Positions 5,333-36,466 of a stretch of DNA of 36,466 nt are shown one piece after another; positions within the stretch are counted from its first letter, which is position 1; each line of letters opens with the position of its first letter. The DNA lies in the IMG/VR virus record IMGVR_UViG_3300027851_000075, positions 1-36,466 of that record. One strand, given 5' to 3'. The notes under the pieces were generated by a model, which worked only from the letters and a program-made list of their open reading frames with translations, searched no databases and was not told where the DNA came from. The DNA is from a virus. Both the position numbers and the translations under genes were made by a program.

Positions 5333-5947
5333 TTAACGTTTTCTCAACAGTTCATCCATGCTCATGCTGACAGGGTTTCCACCGCCAGCACCATCACCGG
5401 CGTTCGCTGTGGGGAATGTGCCTCCATCCCGGAATAGCTGCGGATAGGATTTTTTCAGGCTCTCCCAGTCTGTTTTCCCTTCCGCGTCGATCAACCCATC
5501 TGCTTTCGCAGCCAGCCATGCCAGCTTCGGTTGTGCGCATCGCACATCACTTCCAAAGGCTTCCGTCATGAATTTGGTTTCTTCCGTTGCCGCCTTCAAT
5601 GCGTCCGCCATCGTTTGCAGCTGCTTCTGCAGGTCTTCATTCCCATCTGTCTTTTTCAACAGGGTCCGCAGCTGCTTCTCCATCTCACTCTTTGCGTCTC
5701 GTTCCTTCTTCAGGGCGCTCTTCAACCCGTTTTCATACTCCGCGAACGCCGTTTTCTGCCCGTCCGACCATTCCGCCTGCCAGGCTTCAAAATCTACCGT
5801 TTCAACCGCGCCAGCCGGATCGCCCTCACTCGTAGGTTTTACCGGTGCATCGGCCCCGGATCCGCCCATGCCTTTTTCAGCCTCCCGCCAAAAACGACCG
5901 CCGCGCATCCCGCCAGAGACATCCCGTCTTACACCATCAAATACCAT
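5333..5947 (-). CDS. Capsid scaffold protein (GP20/DUF4355-like)
   Basis: A 204-residue protein with a Gly-rich N-terminus, a long charged coiled coil (about 65-130, KSALKKERDAKSEMEKQLRT) and a C-terminal basic tail (MDELLRKR). This is the usual build of scaffolds that fill the prohead and bind the capsid protein through the C-terminus. It is the first gene of operon D and lies directly after leader copy 1. The ATG follows GAAAGGAATGCAGC. Confidence 0.8.
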   Translation of the reverse strand: MVFDGVRRDVSGGMRGGRFWREAEKGMGGSGADAPVKPTSEGDPAGAVETVDFEAWQAEWSDGQKTAFAEYENGLKSALKKERDAKSEMEKQLRTLLKKTDGNEDLQKQLQTMADALKAATEETKFMTEAFGSDVRCAQPKLAWLAAKADGLIDAEGKTDWESLKKSYPQLFRDGGTFPTANAGDGAGGGNPVSMSMDELLRKR

Positions 5948-5973
5948 TGCTGCATTCCTTTCAACTTCAAGTT

Positions 5974-6011
5974 AAAAAAACAAGCCGTGAAGACATTTCT
6001 ATCTTCACGGC
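5974..6011 (-). terminator. Intrinsic terminator of leader copy 1
   Basis: Stem GCCGTGAAGA/TCTTCACGGC with loop TAGAAATG, then TTGTTTTTTT on the minus strand, placed 27 nt before the scaffold start codon. Confidence 0.85.
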
Positions 6012-6104
6012 CGCTCATCTTCCGTCTTGCCCCGCGCTCTTCGCCGGGCTGCTGCTGGATTCAGGAGAATCGTAGATTCTCCCCTTTGAAAGGGCTATGC
6101 CCTT
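5974..6104 (-). ncRNA. Late-operon leader RNA, copy 1 (terminated, upstream of scaffold gene)
   Basis: Predicted transcript of about 130 nt from the promoter at 6111-6143. In order it holds: hairpin A (GAAAGGGC/GCCCTTTC, triloop ATA); hairpin B (GGAGAATC/GATTCTCC); hairpin C (GCCCGGCG/CGCGGGGC, one mismatch); a conserved unpaired stretch around CGGAAGATGAGCGG; and an intrinsic terminator. The same RNA heads all four late operons (24351, 28426 and 34834 are the other copies). Hairpin A is GAAAGAGC/GCTCTTTC in copy 2, so pairing is kept while sequence changes. A terminator before the genes implies that readthrough must be licensed, possibly by put-like antitermination. That role is inference. 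Confidence 0.75.
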
Positions 6105-6110
6105 TCATCC

Positions 6111-6143
6111 AGTATACCAAATTCCGCAATACTTTAAAAGCCC
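6111..6143 (-). promoter_or_regulatory. Late promoter P2, copy 1
   Basis: Extended -10 TGGTATACT on the minus strand. At the -35 position is a palindromic CTTTTAAAG inside a GGGCTTTTAAAG box present in all four copies, instead of TTGACA. The box looks like a binding site for a phage activator or an alternative sigma factor; this is inference. Confidence 0.7.
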
Positions 6144-6152
6144 CTATTTTCC

Positions 6153-6440
6153 TTACCCCGCCATCTCCAGCAGCGGGATCAAATCTTGATACAACCCCAC
6201 CGCGCTCATCGTCTGCAATTCCCCCGTCATCCGCAGCTCTTCTTCCGTCGACCGCAGCACCAGCACCGTATCCAGCAGCGCTTCCTGCTCCGCATCCAGC
6301 CCTTCCCGCAGCTTCTCCGTCAACTTCTCATTCAACAACTCCACCATCCACAGCGGGATTTTCCTGCCCTGGCTCGCTTCCCACGCCAGCGTACTGCCAA
6401 CTGCAACTACTTCTTCTTGTCGTACTTCATTGGTAATCAT
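6153..6440 (-). CDS. Cassette protein, copy 1 (95 aa, unknown; candidate late regulator)
   Basis: A 95-residue, mostly helical acidic protein with no recognised family. Two paralogues lie at 24534-24821 (nearly identical) and 28586-28888 (diverged, longer by five). Conserved blocks are AWEASQGRKIPLWMVE and ELRMTGELQTMSAVGLYQDL. The start chosen is the ATG nine bases after GGAG; an upstream in-frame ATG (6455) would put this Shine-Dalgarno inside the gene. The GGAG belongs to GGAGACACCC, which is complementary to the terminator loop of the RNA just upstream. Its position between that RNA and the late promoter suggests a regulator of late leaders, but nothing in the sequence proves it. Confidence 0.75.
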   Translation of the reverse strand: MITNEVRQEEVVAVGSTLAWEASQGRKIPLWMVELLNEKLTEKLREGLDAEQEALLDTVLVLRSTEEELRMTGELQTMSAVGLYQDLIPLLEMAG

Positions 6441-6466
6441 TTTGGGTGTCTCCATTTTTTTGCCCG

Positions 6467-6676
6467 CAAAAACAAAAAACCGCAACGCAGTCAACCGCCT
6501 GGAGACACCCATCTCGTGAGCAAATTTTCTGCGCTGCGGATCTTTGTCCACAAGCTTTAAATATATGTTAAATTAGTCGGTTTATGGCTATTCAATTAGG
6601 GCGGTTTGGTGCTTACTTTCATCACACCTGGTGTTTTAAAGTACAAAATTGCTCAAACTTAGAGGTGGGTGTCTCT
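6467..6676 (-). ncRNA. Cassette RNA (P1 RNA), copy 1
   Basis: Predicted approximately 210-nt RNA. Its predicted +1 (6676) begins AGAGACACCC. It ends in an intrinsic terminator: CCGCAGCGCAG (6529-6539) pairs with CTGCGTTGCGG (6480-6490), then TTTTTTGTTTTT. The terminator loop holds GAGATGGGTGTCTCC (6501-6515), complementary both to the RNA's 5' end (6662-6675) and to GGAGACACCC at the Shine-Dalgarno of the 95-residue gene (6444-6453). A second helix, TGAGCAA/TTGCTCA, extends the 5'-to-loop pairing. The RNA can therefore hide the ribosome site in trans or by readthrough, with its own 5' end competing. Confidence 0.7.
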
Positions 6677-6682
6677 GCCCAT

Positions 6683-6688
6683 AGTATA
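6683..6688 (-). promoter_or_regulatory. Promoter P1, copy 1
   Basis: Extended -10 TGCTATACT on the minus strand, seven bases before AGAGAC; no good -35. Identical in all three cassette copies. Confidence 0.65.
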
Positions 6689-6720
6689 GCACAATTGGTA
6701 TACAAATCCAACGCCTGTTT

Positions 6721-6756
6721 AAAATCAACCGCCCAGCTAATGTAGCTGAGCGGTTG
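6721..6756 (-). terminator. Terminator of anti-tRNA RNA, locus 1
   Basis: 14-bp stem with a CAT loop and one G-T pair, followed by ATTTT on the minus strand. Confidence 0.75.
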
Positions 6757-6821
6757 AGTTCATTCCACTCCCCAAAGGACTTGAAATGAACTATCGTCAA
6801 TTCTGACTGTTCTTGCGAAAC
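6721..6821 (-). ncRNA. Anti-tRNA small RNA, locus 1
   Basis: Predicted approximately 100-nt RNA. Its predicted 5' end (6808-6822) is a perfect 15-nt complement of the anticodon arm of the adjacent tRNA (TGTTCTTGCGAAACA in the tRNA). A small hairpin (GTCA GAAT TGAC), a longer GTTCATT/AATGAAC stem and a terminator follow (CAACCGCTCAGCTA/TAGCTGGGCGGTTG, then ATTTT). It has its own promoter at 6828-6856. Locus 2 (29197-29301) repeats this plan with a different tRNA. Confidence 0.65.
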
Positions 6822-6827
6822 ATATAT

Positions 6828-6856
6828 AGTATAACAAATTTTGCATATTGATTCAA
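6828..6856 (-). promoter_or_regulatory. Promoter of anti-tRNA RNA, locus 1
   Basis: TTGAAT (6856-6851), 17-bp spacer, TATACT (6833-6828); predicted +1 at 6821, one base inside the antisense segment. Confidence 0.75.
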
Positions 6857-6863
6857 TATGGAG

Positions 6864-6936
6864 CGCCCCCGGCCAGAATTGAACTGACATATTTTGTTTC
6901 GCAAGAACAACGCTTTGTCCATTAAGCTACAGGGGC
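6864..6936 (-). tRNA. tRNA with anticodon TGC (Ala codon GCA), atypical
   Basis: 73-nt cloverleaf: acceptor GCCCCTG/CGGGGGC, D-stem GCTT/AAGC with loop AATGGACA, anticodon stem TTGTT/AACAA with loop CTTGCGA (anticodon 6901-6903), T-stem GTCAG/CTGGC with loop TTCAATT. No CCA is encoded and the discriminator is G. An alanine tRNA normally carries G3-U70 and A73; here 3-70 is C-G. The body (A20, AATGGA D-loop) is more arginine-like, so charging with alanine is doubtful. Confidence 0.85.
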
Positions 6937-7013
6937 ACTTAGTAATAATTCTAGCACGCATGAATGCAAACCTTTGTTGCGCCTTTATGAAATTACGGTT
7001 TTTTAAGATGCCT

Positions 7014-8898: not shown

Positions 8899-8924
8899 CG
8901 AAAGCACCACCCTCTCTTTGCTGT

Positions 8925-9245
8925 TTGTGTGTATGTTGTGTATGTAGGTGTTTTCAACATACACACTTTCTGGCCCCTGAAATTCTTCCAGGAGACAAAT
9001 CTTCTTAACTCACTTAATACATATACATAGATATACAGATAGTTCACATTTTGACGATCAAACCCGATACCTATGCGCAATAGACGGGCATAGTTTTTTG
9101 AATGTGTGTATGTTGTGTATGTTGTGCACATTGGAATCAGGTTTCCGGCCTTTGTTTTGCTTACTACGGCTGGCTGTTGAGAATGCAAATCAAATCCCCT
9201 CTTTAGCCATAAGACATACACAACATACACAACGTACACAGCCAG
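8925..9245. other. Candidate replication origin with TGTATGTTG iterons
   Basis: At least six copies of TGTATGTTG or its complement (one with a single substitution) in three clusters: 8927-8966, 9104-9126 and 9214-9239. The first cluster is a perfect 12-bp inverted repeat (GTGTGTATGTTG/CAACATACACAC). An AT-rich stretch (9008-9050) lies between. There is no credible gene across these 350 bp, and the primase gene is adjacent. The array could instead be an operator for the genes on either side. Confidence 0.55.
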
Positions 9246-16616: not shown

Positions 16617-16794
16617 GTAAGAGGGTTAAGGTAAGTTTTTGCCAGGAACTGCATGGGGTGTAAGAGGTCGAAGGTTCGAATCCTTTCGCCCCGACCATAA
16701 GCCTCTTACAGAGGCAAATCTCCACGGTAAGAGGTCTCTGGTTCACTTTTTGGGCAGTTTTTCAACTCTCAAAAACAACCGGAGACCTCTTACC
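16617..16794. other. Attachment-site region with GTAAGAGG repeats
   Basis: GTAAGAGG lies at 16617, 16660 and 16727, and its complement at 16702 and 16786. The outer pair extends to an 18-bp inverted repeat with one mismatch (16726-16743/16777-16794). The core overlaps the tRNA-Pro fragment. Integrase 2 starts 77 bp to the right. Arms on both sides suggest an intact attP rather than attL or attR. Confidence 0.6.
16651..16697 (+). tRNA. 3' fragment of a tRNA-Pro(GGG), att core
   Basis: Begins at the anticodon loop (ATGGGGT), then the T-arm GAAGG TTCGAAT CCTTT, acceptor strand CGCCCCG, A73 and encoded CCA. No matching 5' half precedes it. This is the part of a tRNA gene that phages carry to restore the gene on integration. 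Confidence 0.75.
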
Positions 16795-16870
16795 ACGGAA
16801 TTCACAAAATACGAATTGCAGCCCTGGTGTTTTCTTCCTACAATCGAATTCCAAGGAGGATACCCCAATT

Positions 16871-17806
16871 ATGCAACTGTCTACAGCCATCAAAACCTAT
16901 GTTCTTTACCTTGCATCCCTCGGCCGCTCTCCCAGTACCATCAGTTACTACCGCGGCTGCATGGAGCGCCTGCAGGCAGCCATCGGTGACCTAGCGGTTG
17001 ATGAGATCACCCACACGCACCTGGTCAATTTCATGGCGGAACAAAACTTCCAGCAAAAATCCCAGGCGACCATGCAGGCCTATTGGAAAACCTTCAAATC
17101 TTTTTTCACCTGGTGCGAAGAGGAGCTGAATTTAAAGAACCGCCCTGACGCCCGCATCAAATGCCCCCAGGTGCCGCCGCCCGAAGTCATTCCCTTCTCG
17201 CACGACGATATCAAAGCCCTGATGCGCGCTGCAGCCCTGACCAACACCTGTCGCACCCGGGGCCGCAAGTCGTATAAAATGCGCCGCCCCACCGCCGCCC
17301 GGGATCTATCGCTGCTCATGCTCATGCTGGATACCGGATTGCGCGTGTCAGAAGTGGCCCGCATCAAGATTGCCGATGTGGATCTGTTTGAATCAGGTTC
17401 CATCCAGGTGCGCGCTTACCGTTCCGGCCAGAAGTCTCGCCCGCGCACCGTTTACATGTCCAAACGCACCGCCTACCAGATCCACCTGTATCTCAACGAA
17501 CGCCACAAACCACACCCCACCGAAGCATTGTTCCTGAGCGCACATCGCAATCCCATGGACAAAGATTCCATCGATGGCGTCATTGCCAACCTGGGAAAAC
17601 GCGCCAACATCAACAAGACCCACCCGCACCGGTTCAGGCATACCTTCGCCATTGAATTTTTGCGCAATGGCGGTGACGTGTATACCCTGCAGCGCATGCT
17701 GGGTCACTCTACCCTCGATATGGTCAAGCGCTACCTGAATATTTCCGAAGTAGATGTCGAAAACGCCCACCGCCTGGCCTCCCCGGTCGATAACTGGCGG
17801 TTGTAA
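16871..17806 (+). CDS. int: Tyrosine recombinase (integrase 2)
   Basis: 311 residues: an N-terminal SAM-like domain (YVLYLASLGRSPSTISYYRG) and a catalytic domain with Arg in DTGLRVSEV (near 155), HRFRH (253-257), His in LGHST (279) and Tyr in VKRYLN (288). All catalytic residues are intact. The ATG follows CAAGGAGG. It lies next to a tRNA 3' fragment flanked by repeats, the usual place of the enzyme that integrates the phage. It is transcribed against the tail operon and ends in a shared terminator. Confidence 0.92.
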   Translation: MQLSTAIKTYVLYLASLGRSPSTISYYRGCMERLQAAIGDLAVDEITHTHLVNFMAEQNFQQKSQATMQAYWKTFKSFFTWCEEELNLKNRPDARIKCPQVPPPEVIPFSHDDIKALMRAAALTNTCRTRGRKSYKMRRPTAARDLSLLMLMLDTGLRVSEVARIKIADVDLFESGSIQVRAYRSGQKSRPRTVYMSKRTAYQIHLYLNERHKPHPTEALFLSAHRNPMDKDSIDGVIANLGKRANINKTHPHRFRHTFAIEFLRNGGDVYTLQRMLGHSTLDMVKRYLNISEVDVENAHRLASPVDNWRL

Positions 17807-24350: not shown

Positions 24351-24394
24351 ACAAAAAAAAGCCGTGGACTATGCAAATAATGCATAGTCCACGG
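24351..24394 (-). terminator. Intrinsic terminator of leader copy 2
   Basis: Long stem GCCGTGGACTATGCA/TGCATAGTCCACGGC, then eight T on the minus strand. The inner arms share no sequence with copy 1, yet pair fully. Confidence 0.85.
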
Positions 24395-24489
24395 CCGCTC
24401 ATCTTCCGTCTTTGCCCCGCGCTCTTCGCCGGGCTGCTGCTGGGTTCAGGAGAACCTACGACTCTCCCCTTTGAAAGAGCGTAGCTCTT
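24351..24489 (-). ncRNA. Late-operon leader RNA, copy 2 (upstream of tape measure)
   Basis: Same plan as copy 1, about 139 nt. Hairpin A is GAAAGAGC/GCTCTTTC, a compensated change from copy 1; hairpin B is GGAGAGTC/GGTTCTCC with wobble pairs. Loops and the CGGAAGATGAGCGG stretch are conserved. Confidence 0.75.
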
Positions 24490-24495
24490 TCATCC

Positions 24496-24533: not shown

Positions 24534-24821
24534 TTACCCCGCCATCTCCAGCAGCGGGATCAAATCTTGATACAACCCCACCGCGCTCATCGTCTGCAAT
24601 TCCCCCGTCATCCGCAGCTCTTCTTCCGTCGACCGCAGCACCAGCACCGTATCCAGCAGCGCTTCCTGCTCCGCGTCCAGCCCCTCCCGCAGCTTCTCCG
24701 TCAACTTCTCATTCAACAACTCCACCATCCACAGCGGGATTTTCCTGCCCTGGCTCGCTTCCCACGCCAGTGTACTGCCAACTGAAACTACTTCTTCTTG
24801 TCGTACTTCATTGGTATTCAT
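24534..24821 (-). CDS. Cassette protein, copy 2 (95 aa, unknown)
   Basis: Differs from copy 1 at only two residues (MN for MI at the start and S for A in VVSVGS). The ATG lies nine bases after GGAG, which is part of GGAGACGGGCAT (24823-24834), complementary to this copy's own RNA loop. It sits between the tail chaperones and the tape measure, interrupting a gene pair that is normally adjacent in siphoviruses. Confidence 0.75.
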   Translation of the reverse strand: MNTNEVRQEEVVSVGSTLAWEASQGRKIPLWMVELLNEKLTEKLREGLDAEQEALLDTVLVLRSTEEELRMTGELQTMSAVGLYQDLIPLLEMAG

Positions 24822-24848
24822 TATGCCCGTCTCCATTTCATGCCCGTA

Positions 24849-25057
24849 AACCAAAAAACCACAGCGCAGTCAACCACCTGGAGACGGGCATCTCGTGAGT
24901 AGCTTTTCTGCGCTGCGGATCTTTGTCCACAAGCATTTGAATATTCAGATATGTTAATTTAGTCGGTTTATGGATATAGGCGGTTGGGTGCTTACTTTCA
25001 ATTGCACCTGGTATTTTAAAGTACAAAGTTACTCACATTGCGAGATTGCCCGTCTCT
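24849..25057 (-). ncRNA. Cassette RNA (P1 RNA), copy 2
   Basis: Begins AGAGACGGGC. Loop element GAGATGCCCGTCTCC (24880-24894) pairs with the 5' end (25042-25056) and with the Shine-Dalgarno region (24823-24834). Terminator stem CCGCAGCGCAG/CTGCGCTGTGG keeps pairing with a G-T at a different position from copy 1. The second helix is GTGAGTA/TACTCAC, compensated against copy 1. Confidence 0.7.
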
Positions 25058-25063
25058 GCCCAT

Positions 25064-25069
25064 AGTATA
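25064..25069 (-). promoter_or_regulatory. Promoter P1, copy 2
   Basis: Extended -10 TGCTATACT; predicted +1 at 25057. Confidence 0.65.
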
Positions 25070-25095
25070 GCACAATTTGTAGACAAATAGTACGT

Positions 25096-25278
25096 TTATT
25101 TTCGTTCCTTCCGCTCCATTCTGGCTTTTACCACTCCGGCTTCGGTATCCATATAAAACAGCGCCCGTTTCTGCCAGAACTCATCTTGCTGTATCAGTTC
25201 CCAGGGCGGCACCCCCAGCCATCGCGCCAGTTGAAACAGGTTCCATTCTTCCACCAGCCACGCCTCCGGCTTCGGCAT
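25096..25278 (-). CDS. Second tail assembly chaperone, made by -1 frameshift
   Basis: This frame (MPKPEAWLVEEWNLFQLARW) has no good ribosome site of its own but is open upstream in the -1 frame to the slippery run at 25308-25316 near the end of the preceding gene. Slipping back one base there reads through the stop and joins RLRRHLIDPDMPKPE to the first chaperone, giving a GT-type fusion. This is the well-known arrangement of tail chaperones that load the tape measure. The frame is written here from its internal ATG. Confidence 0.75.
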   Translation of the reverse strand: MPKPEAWLVEEWNLFQLARWLGVPPWELIQQDEFWQKRALFYMDTEAGVVKARMERKERK

Positions 25279-28425: not shown

Positions 28426-28464
28426 AAAAACAAACAAGCCGTGAAGACATTTCTATCTTCACGG
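28426..28464 (-). terminator. Intrinsic terminator of leader copy 3
   Basis: Same stem as copy 1 (GCCGTGAAGA/TCTTCACGGC), then TTGTTTGTTTTT on the minus strand. Confidence 0.82.
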
Positions 28465-28556
28465 CCGCTCATCTTCCGTTGTGCCCCGCGCTCTCCGCCG
28501 GGCTGCTTGGTTCAGGAGAATCGTAGATTCTCCCCTTTGAAAGGGCTATGCCCTTT
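28426..28556 (-). ncRNA. Late-operon leader RNA, copy 3 (upstream of connectors)
   Basis: Same order as copy 1. The C hairpin loop is GGAGAG instead of GAAGAG and the linker before CGGAAG differs by two bases, while stems are intact. Confidence 0.75.
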
Positions 28557-28562
28557 CAATCC

Positions 28563-28595
28563 ATTGTACCAAATTGCGCCCAACTTTAAAAGCCC
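28563..28595 (-). promoter_or_regulatory. Late promoter P2, copy 3
   Basis: TGGTACAAT with the GGGCTTTTAAAG box, which overlaps the stop codon of the cassette gene. Confidence 0.7.
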
Positions 28596-28888
28596 TCATT
28601 TTCCCCCGTCATCGCCAGTGCCGGGATCAAATCCTGGTACAACCCCACCGCGCTCATCGTCTGTAACTCCCCCGTCATCCGCAGTTCGTCTCCCATCGAC
28701 CGTACCACCAGCAGCGAATCCAGCAGTGCTTCCTGCTCTGCGCTCAGCCCGGCCCGCAGCTTTTCCGTCAACCGGTCATCCAATTCTTCCACCATCCACA
28801 ACGGGATCTTCCTGCCCTGGCTCGCTTCCCACGCCAGGTCACTGCCAACTGCTTCTACTTCTTCTTGCCGTATTTCATTGGTATTCAT
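28586..28888 (-). CDS. Cassette protein, copy 3 (100 aa, unknown)
   Basis: Diverged paralogue: changes cluster in the middle helix (EELDDRLTEKLRAGLSAEQ) and it is five residues longer (ENEGF) because the stop lies inside the P2 box. The core AWEASQGRKIPLWMVE and ELQTMSAVGLYQDLIP are unchanged. The ATG lies nine bases after GGAG in GGAGACCTCC (28892-28901). Confidence 0.75.
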   Translation of the reverse strand: MNTNEIRQEEVEAVGSDLAWEASQGRKIPLWMVEELDDRLTEKLRAGLSAEQEALLDSLLVVRSMGDELRMTGELQTMSAVGLYQDLIPALAMTGENEGF

Positions 28889-28913
28889 TTTGGAGGTCTC
28901 CATATTCAGCCCG

Positions 28914-29123
28914 CAAAAACAAAAAACCGCAACGCAGTCAACCGCCTGGAGACCTCCATCTCGTGAGCAAATTTTCTGCGCTGCGGATCTTTGTCCACAA
29001 GCTTTAAATATATGTTAAATTAGTCGGTTTATGGCTATTCAATTGGGCGGTTTGGTGCTTACTTTCATTCACACCTGGTGTTTTAAAGTACAAAATTGCT
29101 CAAACTTAGAGGTGGAGGTCTCT
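28914..29123 (-). ncRNA. Cassette RNA (P1 RNA), copy 3
   Basis: Begins AGAGACCTCC. Loop element GAGATGGAGGTCTCC (28948-28962), 5' partner 29109-29122, Shine-Dalgarno partner 28892-28901. It is nearly the same sequence as copy 1 apart from these three words, which all change from the ACACCC type to the ACCTCC type. Terminator stem CCGCAGCGCAG/CTGCGTTGCGG, then TTTTTTGTTTTT. Confidence 0.72.
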
Positions 29124-29129
29124 GCCCAT

Positions 29130-29135
29130 AGTATA
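29130..29135 (-). promoter_or_regulatory. Promoter P1, copy 3
   Basis: Extended -10 TGCTATACT; predicted +1 at 29123. Confidence 0.65.
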
Positions 29136-29196
29136 GCACAATTGGTAGACAAATCCAACAGATTCCTACAAAAAAACGTCCAGTTGCCTGACCGTT

Positions 29197-29336: not shown

Positions 29337-29343
29337 GAAATAG

Positions 29344-29416
29344 CTCCCCCGACCGGACTCGAACCGATATTTTTTTTACTGCGAGTAAAATGCCATGTCC
29401 ATTAGGCGACGGGGGA
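29344..29416 (-). tRNA. tRNA with anticodon CGC (Ala codon GCG), atypical
   Basis: 73-nt cloverleaf: acceptor TCCCCCG/CGGGGGA, D-arm GCCT AATGGACA TGGC (three good pairs), anticodon stem TTTTA/TAAAA with loop CTCGCAG (anticodon 29383-29381), T-arm ATCGG TTCGAGT CCGGT. No CCA; discriminator G; pair 3-70 is C-G. As with the tRNA at 6864, the alanine anticodon sits on a body without alanine identity. Confidence 0.88.
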
Positions 29417-34833: not shown

Positions 34834-34876
34834 CAAAAAAAGCCGCAGTCCATACGTTCATCGTATGGACCACGGC
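34834..34876 (-). terminator. Intrinsic terminator of leader copy 4
   Basis: Stem GCCG..GTCCATACG/CGTATGGAC..CGGC with a two-base internal mismatch, then seven T on the minus strand. The stem sequence is unlike copies 1-3. Confidence 0.82.
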
Positions 34877-34971
34877 CGCTCATCTTCCGTCTTTGCCCCG
34901 CGCTCACCGCCGGGCTGCTGCTAGTTTCAGGAGTATCTGGGATTCTCCCCTTTGAAAGGGCTATGCCCTTT
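34834..34971 (-). ncRNA. Late-operon leader RNA, copy 4 (upstream of holin)
   Basis: Same promoter, hairpin order and terminator as copies 1-3, but without the cassette RNA and the 95-residue gene. Hairpin B is weaker. It heads operon A (holin to portal). Confidence 0.75.
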
Positions 34972-34977
34972 CAATCC

Positions 34978-35010
34978 AGTATACCAAATTGCGTGGAACT
35001 TTAAAAGCCC
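34978..35010 (-). promoter_or_regulatory. Late promoter P2, copy 4
   Basis: TGGTATACT with the GGGCTTTTAAAG box at -35, as in the other copies. Confidence 0.7.
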
Positions 35011-35692: not shown

Positions 35693-35917
35693 GGTCGTAC
35701 CCCTTTCAGAGATGATTGGTTCTATAAGGTAATGATAATATATTTCATTGGATAGGTGAGGTTTATTACCAAACAAAAACAAATTTCTTTTGTAGCTATC
35801 ATCCGCAAATTTCGCGGTTTGTGCCGTTTTGTTTCGTTCGCTTTTTCAATTATCCCCCCGGCAGGGCATTGTTGCGCATCCATAGTGAAAATCTGCTTTT
35901 TTTCGCCATTTTCGGGC

Positions 35918-35923
35918 TATAAT
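35918..35923 (+). promoter_or_regulatory. Possible promoter of hsdM
   Basis: TATAAT at 35918-35923 with no convincing -35. Otherwise the 300 bp between the lipoprotein and hsdM starts show only AT-rich DNA and pyrimidine tracts. Confidence 0.4.
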
Positions 35924-35993
35924 GAAATTCGCACATTCACTGTTGCATTCCACCCCACTACAGAACCATTGCCAGGCAAAGGGAATATCGAAC

Positions 35994-36466
35994 ATGCCAG
36001 TTAAAAAATCTGAACTCTACTCATCGTTATGGGCGAGCTGTGACGCACTGCGCGGCGGTATGGATGCCTCCCAGTACAAGGATTATGTCCTCGTCATGCT
36101 CTTCATTAAATACATCTCCGACAAGTACGCCGGAAAACCCTATTCCCCCATTCAGGTCCCGCCTGGCGCCAGTTTCAAAGAGATGGTCGCTCTCAAAGGC
36201 AAGTCCGATATCGGTGACCAGATCAACAAGAAGATCATTGCACCCCTCGCCGCCGCCAATCACCTCTCTGATTTTCCCGATTTCAATGATCCCAACAAGC
36301 TGGGCGATGGCAAAGAAATGGTCGATCGCCTCACCAATCTGATTGCCATCTTTGAAAAAAAGGAACTCGATTTCACTGCCAACCGCGCCGATGGCGATGA
36401 CCTCCTCGGCGATGCCTACGAGTACCTCATGCGTAACTTCGCCACCGAGAGCGGTAAATCCAAGGG
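35994..36466 (+). CDS. hsdM: Type I restriction-modification methyltransferase subunit HsdM (partial)
   Basis: The first 157 residues, running off the window. MPVKKSELYSSLWASCDALR, then YKDYVLVMLFIKYISDKYAG and the GDAYEYLMRNFATESGKSKG block are the N-terminal helical domain of HsdM up to just before the methyltransferase core, which would follow (usual length about 500 residues). It methylates adenine within a complex with HsdS and HsdR. The ATG follows AAAGGGA. It faces away from the phage and probably belongs to a host hsd operon, marking the outer side of the phage. Confidence 0.9.
   Translation, partial: MPVKKSELYSSLWASCDALRGGMDASQYKDYVLVMLFIKYISDKYAGKPYSPIQVPPGASFKEMVALKGKSDIGDQINKKIIAPLAAANHLSDFPDFNDPNKLGDGKEMVDRLTNLIAIFEKKELDFTANRADGDDLLGDAYEYLMRNFATESGKSK

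Follow-up and report, generated by a model that had tools for sequence, protein, structure and literature searches.

The sequence analyzed here (referred to as the window) is the whole of the 36,466-base virus record IMGVR_UViG_3300027851_000075, in which most genes are on the minus strand. Gene calls and profile searches identify a phage gene set that includes head, portal, terminase, tail, integrase, SSB, and primase-like genes. Both ends of the window (positions 1 to 1245 and 35800 to 36466) read like host DNA, the left end being lower in GC and the right end resembling, by eye, a restriction-modification methylase, and the record is therefore probably an integrated prophage. There are also two sets of direct and inverted repeats, TGTGTATGTTGTGTATGT at 8917 to 9240 beside the primase-like gene, which may be an origin or operator, and GTAAGAGG at 16617 to 16799 just upstream of the integrase gene (16871 to 17806), which is a candidate attachment or regulatory site. 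The subject of this analysis is a unit that occurs three times in the window, always on the minus strand and each time before a near-identical small ORF (Table 1). A 204-amino-acid gene, itself preceding the capsid gene, comes after copy 1, and the tape-measure gene comes after copy 2; copy 3 is located after the portal gene.

Table 1. Predicted elements of the three leader units and their ORFs
Feature	Position	Strand	Details and basis
Copy 1 predicted promoter	6683..6711	-	-35 TTGGAT 6711-6706, 17-nt spacer, extended -10 TGC-TATACT 6688-6683; +1 A6676
Copy 1 5' word GAGACACCCA	6666..6675	-	Word search, triple scan
Copy 1 P2 5' strand GAGCAAUUUU	6645..6654	-	Extends antiterminator; folding; C-G becomes U-A in copy 2
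Copy 1 terminator 5' arm CCGCAGCGCAG	6529..6539	-	Folding
Copy 1 P2 3' strand AAAAUUUGCUC	6518..6528	-	Copy alignment, folding
Copy 1 loop word TGGGTGTCTC	6502..6511	-	In GAGA-[UGGGUG]-UCUC hairpin of terminator loop
Copy 1 terminator 3' arm CUGCGUUGCGG and U tract	6474..6490	-	Arm 6490-6480, U6 tract 6479-6474; folding
Copy 1 SD word GGAGACACCCA	6443..6453	-	Word search, triple scan
Copy 1 ORF	6153..6440	-	95 aa, acidic, without family match; dN/dS 0.20-0.41 between copies
Copy 2 5' word GAGACGGGCA	25047..25056	-	+1 at 25057; -10 25069-25064
Copy 2 loop word TGCCCGTCTC	24881..24890	-	Terminator arms 24918-24908, 24869-24859
Copy 2 SD word GGAGACGGGCA	24824..24834	-	Folding, triple scan
Copy 2 ORF	24534..24821	-	95 aa; copy comparison
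Copy 3 5' word GAGACCTCCA	29113..29122	-	+1 at 29123
Copy 3 loop word TGGAGGTCTC	28949..28958	-	Terminator arms 28986-28976, 28937-28927
Copy 3 SD word GGAGACCTCCA	28891..28901	-	Folding, triple scan
Copy 3 ORF	28586..28888	-	100 aa; copy comparison

The original prediction for copy 1 was that one word is found at the 5' end of the RNA, inverted in a terminator loop, and again at the Shine-Dalgarno (SD) site of the next gene, and this is borne out. The word GAGACACCC is present exactly three times in the window, at 6667 to 6675 (minus strand), as its complement at 6502 to 6510, and at 6444 to 6452 (minus strand); 0.14 occurrences are expected per window, and none of 100 shuffles contained three. 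The word common to the sites is 10 nt long (GAGACACCCA), with its complement 164 nt downstream in the terminator loop, while the SD site has an extra G (GGAGACACCCA) and is followed by the ATG at 6440. The location in the terminator loop is confirmed, with the refinement that the loop word lies within a small GAGA/UCUC hairpin. The word is at the 5' end, as proposed, but it does not begin with the first base of the transcript, since the predicted +1 is one base before it. The copy 1 promoter was read by eye, has a poor -35, and was not listed by a consensus promoter scan; a terminator scan called the copy 1 terminator partially. The region from -10 to +6 is invariant in the three copies.

Further copies with words of their own had also been anticipated, and copies 2 and 3 do have the layout of copy 1 with different words: just after the predicted +1, as the complement in the terminator loop, and at the SD of the ORF. 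The words are GAGAC-ACC-CA, GAGAC-GGG-CA, and GAGAC-CTC-CA, so that the description "copy-specific" is accurate for the middle triplet (ACC, GGG, or CTC) but not for the constant GAGAC...CA. The pairs at the variable positions are Watson-Crick in 18 of 18 cases across the three copies. The SD core and the first bases after +1 belong to the constant part of the word, and this suggests that the triplet is the only part free to change. Triples were sought in which a word, its complement, and the word again are spaced as in a leader and the last one coincides with an SD and a start codon. For k of 8, 9, and 10, the window has three such loci, and 40 other loci with a total of 574,044 bases have none. 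Nine-base triples of any kind average 0.08 in first-order Markov resamples of the window, a comparison in which the window's own triples include a low-complexity repeat at 8955 to 9231.

Two other kinds of predicted RNA are found near the copies. Copies 1 and 3 each have a tRNA-Ala-like gene upstream, at 6863 to 6936 (minus strand, TGC anticodon) and 29343 to 29416 (minus strand, CGC anticodon), respectively, and neither gene has a G3:U70 pair when read by eye. After each gene come a TATACT or TATAAT box and a predicted short RNA that, from its predicted +1, is antisense to the anticodon arm of its own tRNA (6821 to 6808 and 29301 to 29288, minus strand); the next part of each short RNA resembles the complement of the T arm. 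The duplexes of antisense RNA with anticodon arm have energies of -24.1 and -26.6 kcal/mol for cognate pairs and -6.9 and -9.3 kcal/mol for crossed pairs. As modeled, these tRNA/antisense pairs would repeat the theme of copy-specific pairing from +1. A literature search on RNAs antisense to phage tRNAs turned up nothing relevant, as judged by title. A second repeated structured RNA (about 5983 to 6111, 24360 to 24494, 28436 to 28561, and 34846 to 34978, all minus strand) is present after the ORF of each copy and once more before a holin-like gene. It has its own TATACT or TACAAT box, two small-loop hairpins whose loops differ between copies, and a strong terminator, and among the matches listed for its profile HMM in 40 terminase-relative loci, the E values were 3.9 or worse.

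All folding was nested, with pseudoknots outside the model. When leaders of copies 1, 2, and 3 are folded as far as the U tract, the 5' word pairs with the loop with a probability of 0.99, 0.93, and 0.99, respectively, and the 11-bp terminator stem has a probability of 0.00, 0.02, and 0.00. When the first 14 nt, with the 5' word, are blocked, the terminator probability becomes 0.98, 1.00, and 0.98. Because the 5' pairing shuts out the terminator and blocking it restores the terminator, pairing of the 5' word with the loop is, in the nested model, an antiterminator. Longer leaders of copy 2 (with the ATG out or with 60 nt more) are in the terminator form despite a free 5' word (P1, 0.00; terminator, 1.00). 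The claim that the loop is able to pair with either the 5' end or the SD agrees well with the computed duplexes, for which the energies are nearly equal: -23.7, -25.0, and -23.9 kcal/mol with the cognate 5' word and -24.0, -26.9, and -24.2 kcal/mol with the cognate SD for copies 1 to 3. Noncognate partners give -10.8 to -17.4 kcal/mol. The original prediction also made these pairings mutually exclusive, with the 5' end competing with the ribosome site. In nested folding, what the 5' pairing shuts out is the terminator. On the basis of these models, we rank a transcriptional choice between antiterminator and terminator first, ahead of SD competition, and a transcriptional output is probable.

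Pairing of the SD with the loop depends on how much of the RNA is folded. Its probability is 0.98, 1.00, and 0.98 when the RNA is folded only from just upstream of the loop. With the full leader, it is 0.00 for copies 2 and 3, and in copy 1 it is 0.85 with the ATG just out and 0.02 with 60 nt of the ORF, in a model that is unable to show SD-loop pairing together with the terminator stem, which would be a pseudoknot. Since nested folding shows this pairing clearly only in copy 1, at one length, and in 5'-truncated RNA, and a pseudoknot is outside the model, we regard a translational output as possible.

One explanation for this arrangement is a leader switch or attenuator that acts only in cis, in which the 5' word and the SD are competing partners for the loop of the same molecule, the timing is set by transcription, 5'-end processing, or a bound factor, and the copies differ by compensatory drift. 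This is consistent with the very stable cis pairing at the U tract (0.93 to 0.99) and with the hiding of the SD in RNA without the upstream half (0.98 to 1.00). However, the comparison of copies 1 and 3 is difficult to reconcile with drift. In the RNA body of these copies (162 alignment columns), there are no substitutions and 2 indel columns, and in the 49-column spacer between loop and SD, there are 3 substitutions and 1 indel column, whereas the words have 2 + 2 + 2 coordinated substitutions across the three sites. Drift would have had to change three sites jointly while the body remained unsubstituted, and a switch acting only in cis offers no reason for the copies to differ. We consider this explanation unlikely, although it is the most credible of the alternatives.

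Pairing in trans was modeled by cofolding the native 24-nt loop hairpin with the leaders. The energies (dimer minus monomers) are -14.2, -17.4, and -14.0 kcal/mol for the cognate leaders of copies 1 to 3 and -4.6 to -7.3 kcal/mol for noncognate leaders (all six combinations). With the cognate hairpin bound, the leader terminator has a probability of 0.98 to 1.00 and P1 a probability of 0.00; these pair probabilities are conditional on the dimer, and noncognate values from the same calculation are not equivalent to binding. If the complete terminator hairpin is supplied in trans instead, the leader no longer forms its own terminator (probability 0.00 for each of the three cognate pairs). An isolated terminated RNA is predicted to refold with its own 5' word hiding the loop (-53.5 versus -47.1, -57.0 versus -54.1, and -54.1 versus -47.6 kcal/mol for loop hidden versus not). 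Because the free terminated RNA hides its own loop in these models, trans action would need processing, occupancy, or kinetic trapping. That each copy has its own matched triplet at the three sites suggests that the three copies act by RNA pairing and are mutually insulated.

The explanation that we favor, with moderate confidence, is that each copy is an RNA-controlled transcription attenuator before a small phage gene and is probably under trans control by RNA with a word of the same class. Transcription would start one base before the word. In an undisturbed leader, folding predicts an antiterminator, made by pairing of the 5' word with the loop word and closing of P2, so that polymerase would read through with the SD clear of the loop. 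If RNA with the loop word of the same copy already exists, which could be terminated or processed leader with its own 5' word removed or occupied, it may capture the 5' word of a leader that is still being made, in which case the terminator would form and transcription would stop. Any read-through RNA would have a free loop able to cover the SD. The pattern of changes between copies suggests that harmful cross-pairing drove them to different triplets, giving each gene its own feedback loop. A more far-reaching version is an RNA off-state that propagates itself in three independent channels: a captured leader would adopt the terminator form and present a new free loop, which would capture the next leader with the same word. 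In that case, the silent state would be copied from a template and inherited, with the triplet serving as an address code and the tRNA/anti-tRNA pairs as a second addressed layer. We think this version quite doubtful.

The history of the copies can be followed in the alignment (6153 to 6725 versus 24534 to 25106 and 28586 to 29172). Between copies 1 and 2, there are differences in 36 of the 162 columns of the RNA body and in 6 of the 305 columns of the ORF segments. Copy 1 is thus a mosaic, with an RNA like that of copy 3, an ORF like that of copy 2, and a word unlike either, and from this pattern we infer that it is a recombinant whose word differs from those of both relatives. Copy 2 keeps the terminator stem through U-to-C and C-to-U changes opposite G. 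Mosaic copies would also be expected of an RNA immunity or copy-control determinant as in P4 or P1 (c4 of P1 is a comparison system for RNA-based phage immunity), in which the leader RNA would silence the same word class on an incoming phage and the words would be heteroimmune types collected by recombination. The three-part seqA-CI-seqC logic of P4 immunity is in line with this, one RNA word (CI) pairing with upstream seqA and downstream seqC and causing premature termination, as outlined in the part of PMC4825925 on P4. Against this reading, at least one gene in the genome (7698 to 8201, Pfam HTH_3) is a candidate for an ordinary HTH regulator, and the genes under predicted switch control are amid late structural genes rather than in a replication or early operon. 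Such a determinant therefore seems improbable to us.

The ORF has dN/dS values of 0.20 (copies 1 and 2), 0.38 (copies 1 and 3), and 0.41 (copies 2 and 3), which points to purifying selection, as expected for a real protein. The product is acidic (18 D+E and 8 K+R), with four helices predicted at low confidence; its AlphaFold2 model is of low confidence (pLDDT, 63.5), and in a search of viral folds, nothing matched it at E ≤ 0.001. No family was found in Pfam, PHROGs, or NCBIfam, or in PDB by profile. Copies 1 and 2 encode proteins with 98% identity (2 of 95 residues differ), which makes copy-specific recognition by protein unlikely; copy-specific words beside a near-identical protein favor RNA pairing. 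This bears on the possibility that the words are DNA operators at +1, terminator, and SD, with a bound protein looping the DNA. The first word, over +1, is in the usual operator position, but three operator types would need three proteins, and the loop copy is inverted within a terminator loop, as RNA pairing requires. We find DNA operators very improbable. Just as little probability attaches, in our judgment, to a toxin-antitoxin system in which the ORF is a toxin, the RNA is its repressor, and the paralogues are kept separate as in Ibs/Sib, where paralogous toxin-antitoxin copies are separated in this way. A small, multicopy, copy-specific ORF under predicted RNA control would suit it; however, type I systems pair a small hydrophobic toxin with an antisense RNA, and this product, at 95 amino acids, acidic, possibly helical, and without a family match, is not a small hydrophobic peptide.

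Searches for relatives returned the same phage. Protein and alignment searches of viral contigs found ORF homologues only in the same phage, from one metagenome and with 100% identity to the window; alignment to genome contigs found no ORF relatives among 38 pattern stretches, and a protein search of phage records gave no match. Distant blastn found no RNA homologues in phages or plasmids, five RNA patterns matched only the same phage among viral contigs, and a leader profile HMM gave nothing better than E = 1 in 40 terminase-relative loci. The relatives found by terminase are too distant, with terminase the sole common gene in 34 of the 40 loci. The evolutionary support is thus from three sequences in one genome, as all homologues found are in contigs of this phage. 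In a covariance search of the window with Rfam 15, which presumably includes the C4 antisense RNA and T-box families, only two tRNAs reached the gathering score, and at E ≤ 5, positions 5960 to 6960 gave only a tRNA and two subthreshold plus-strand matches. Two other readings were rejected: a group I intron guide, as there is no Rfam intron match, and a target-site duplication, as the flanks are common to all copies.

In their working, the switches resemble several known attenuators, by analogy and with no implication of family membership. In pT181-type antisense attenuators, capture in trans of a nascent 5' element lets a terminator form. Unlike in that type, no opposite-strand antisense gene was identified here; a consensus scan of 5900 to 7000 gave one plus-strand promoter (6803 to 6830), which reads away from the leader. 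As in satellite phage P4, so far as the P4 part of PMC4825925 describes it, a leader segment is complementary to one upstream and one downstream word; unlike in P4 as presented there, the three words are located at +1 (5' word), in the loop of an intrinsic terminator (center word), and at the SD (downstream word), and one genome has three apparently insulated paralogues. The section of PMC4825925 on IsrK of the Salmonella prophage Gifsy-1 describes one promoter that yields a terminated short RNA and a read-through mRNA, on which the short RNA acts in trans. The promoter and terminator predicted here would likewise allow short terminated and long read-through forms, but IsrK activates translation, whereas repression is predicted here, and that section mentions no three-part word or multiple copies. 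For I-complex plasmids, the relevant portion of PMC10724649 reports that kissing loops of RNAI and stem-loop I fix specificity, that one base change alters IncK1/IncK2 compatibility, and that three loop bases are crucial in IncB/O. A few loop bases would set specificity here as well; unlike RNAI, which in that portion is an antisense stem-loop RNA controlling plasmid rep, both partners here would come from one sense transcript.

Plasmids and P4-like elements are known to have single RNA attenuators in which a few loop bases determine specificity. The predicted RNA elements described here are a real and unusual set, and the surprising part is the presence of three paralogues seemingly insulated by matched triplets. 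If our explanation is true, they would be a natural orthogonal set of three near-identical leaders that differ mainly by matched triplets, and they would show duplication of an RNA circuit followed by insulation. They would also provide a small, testable system in which to ask whether a three-base change suffices for a new regulatory channel.
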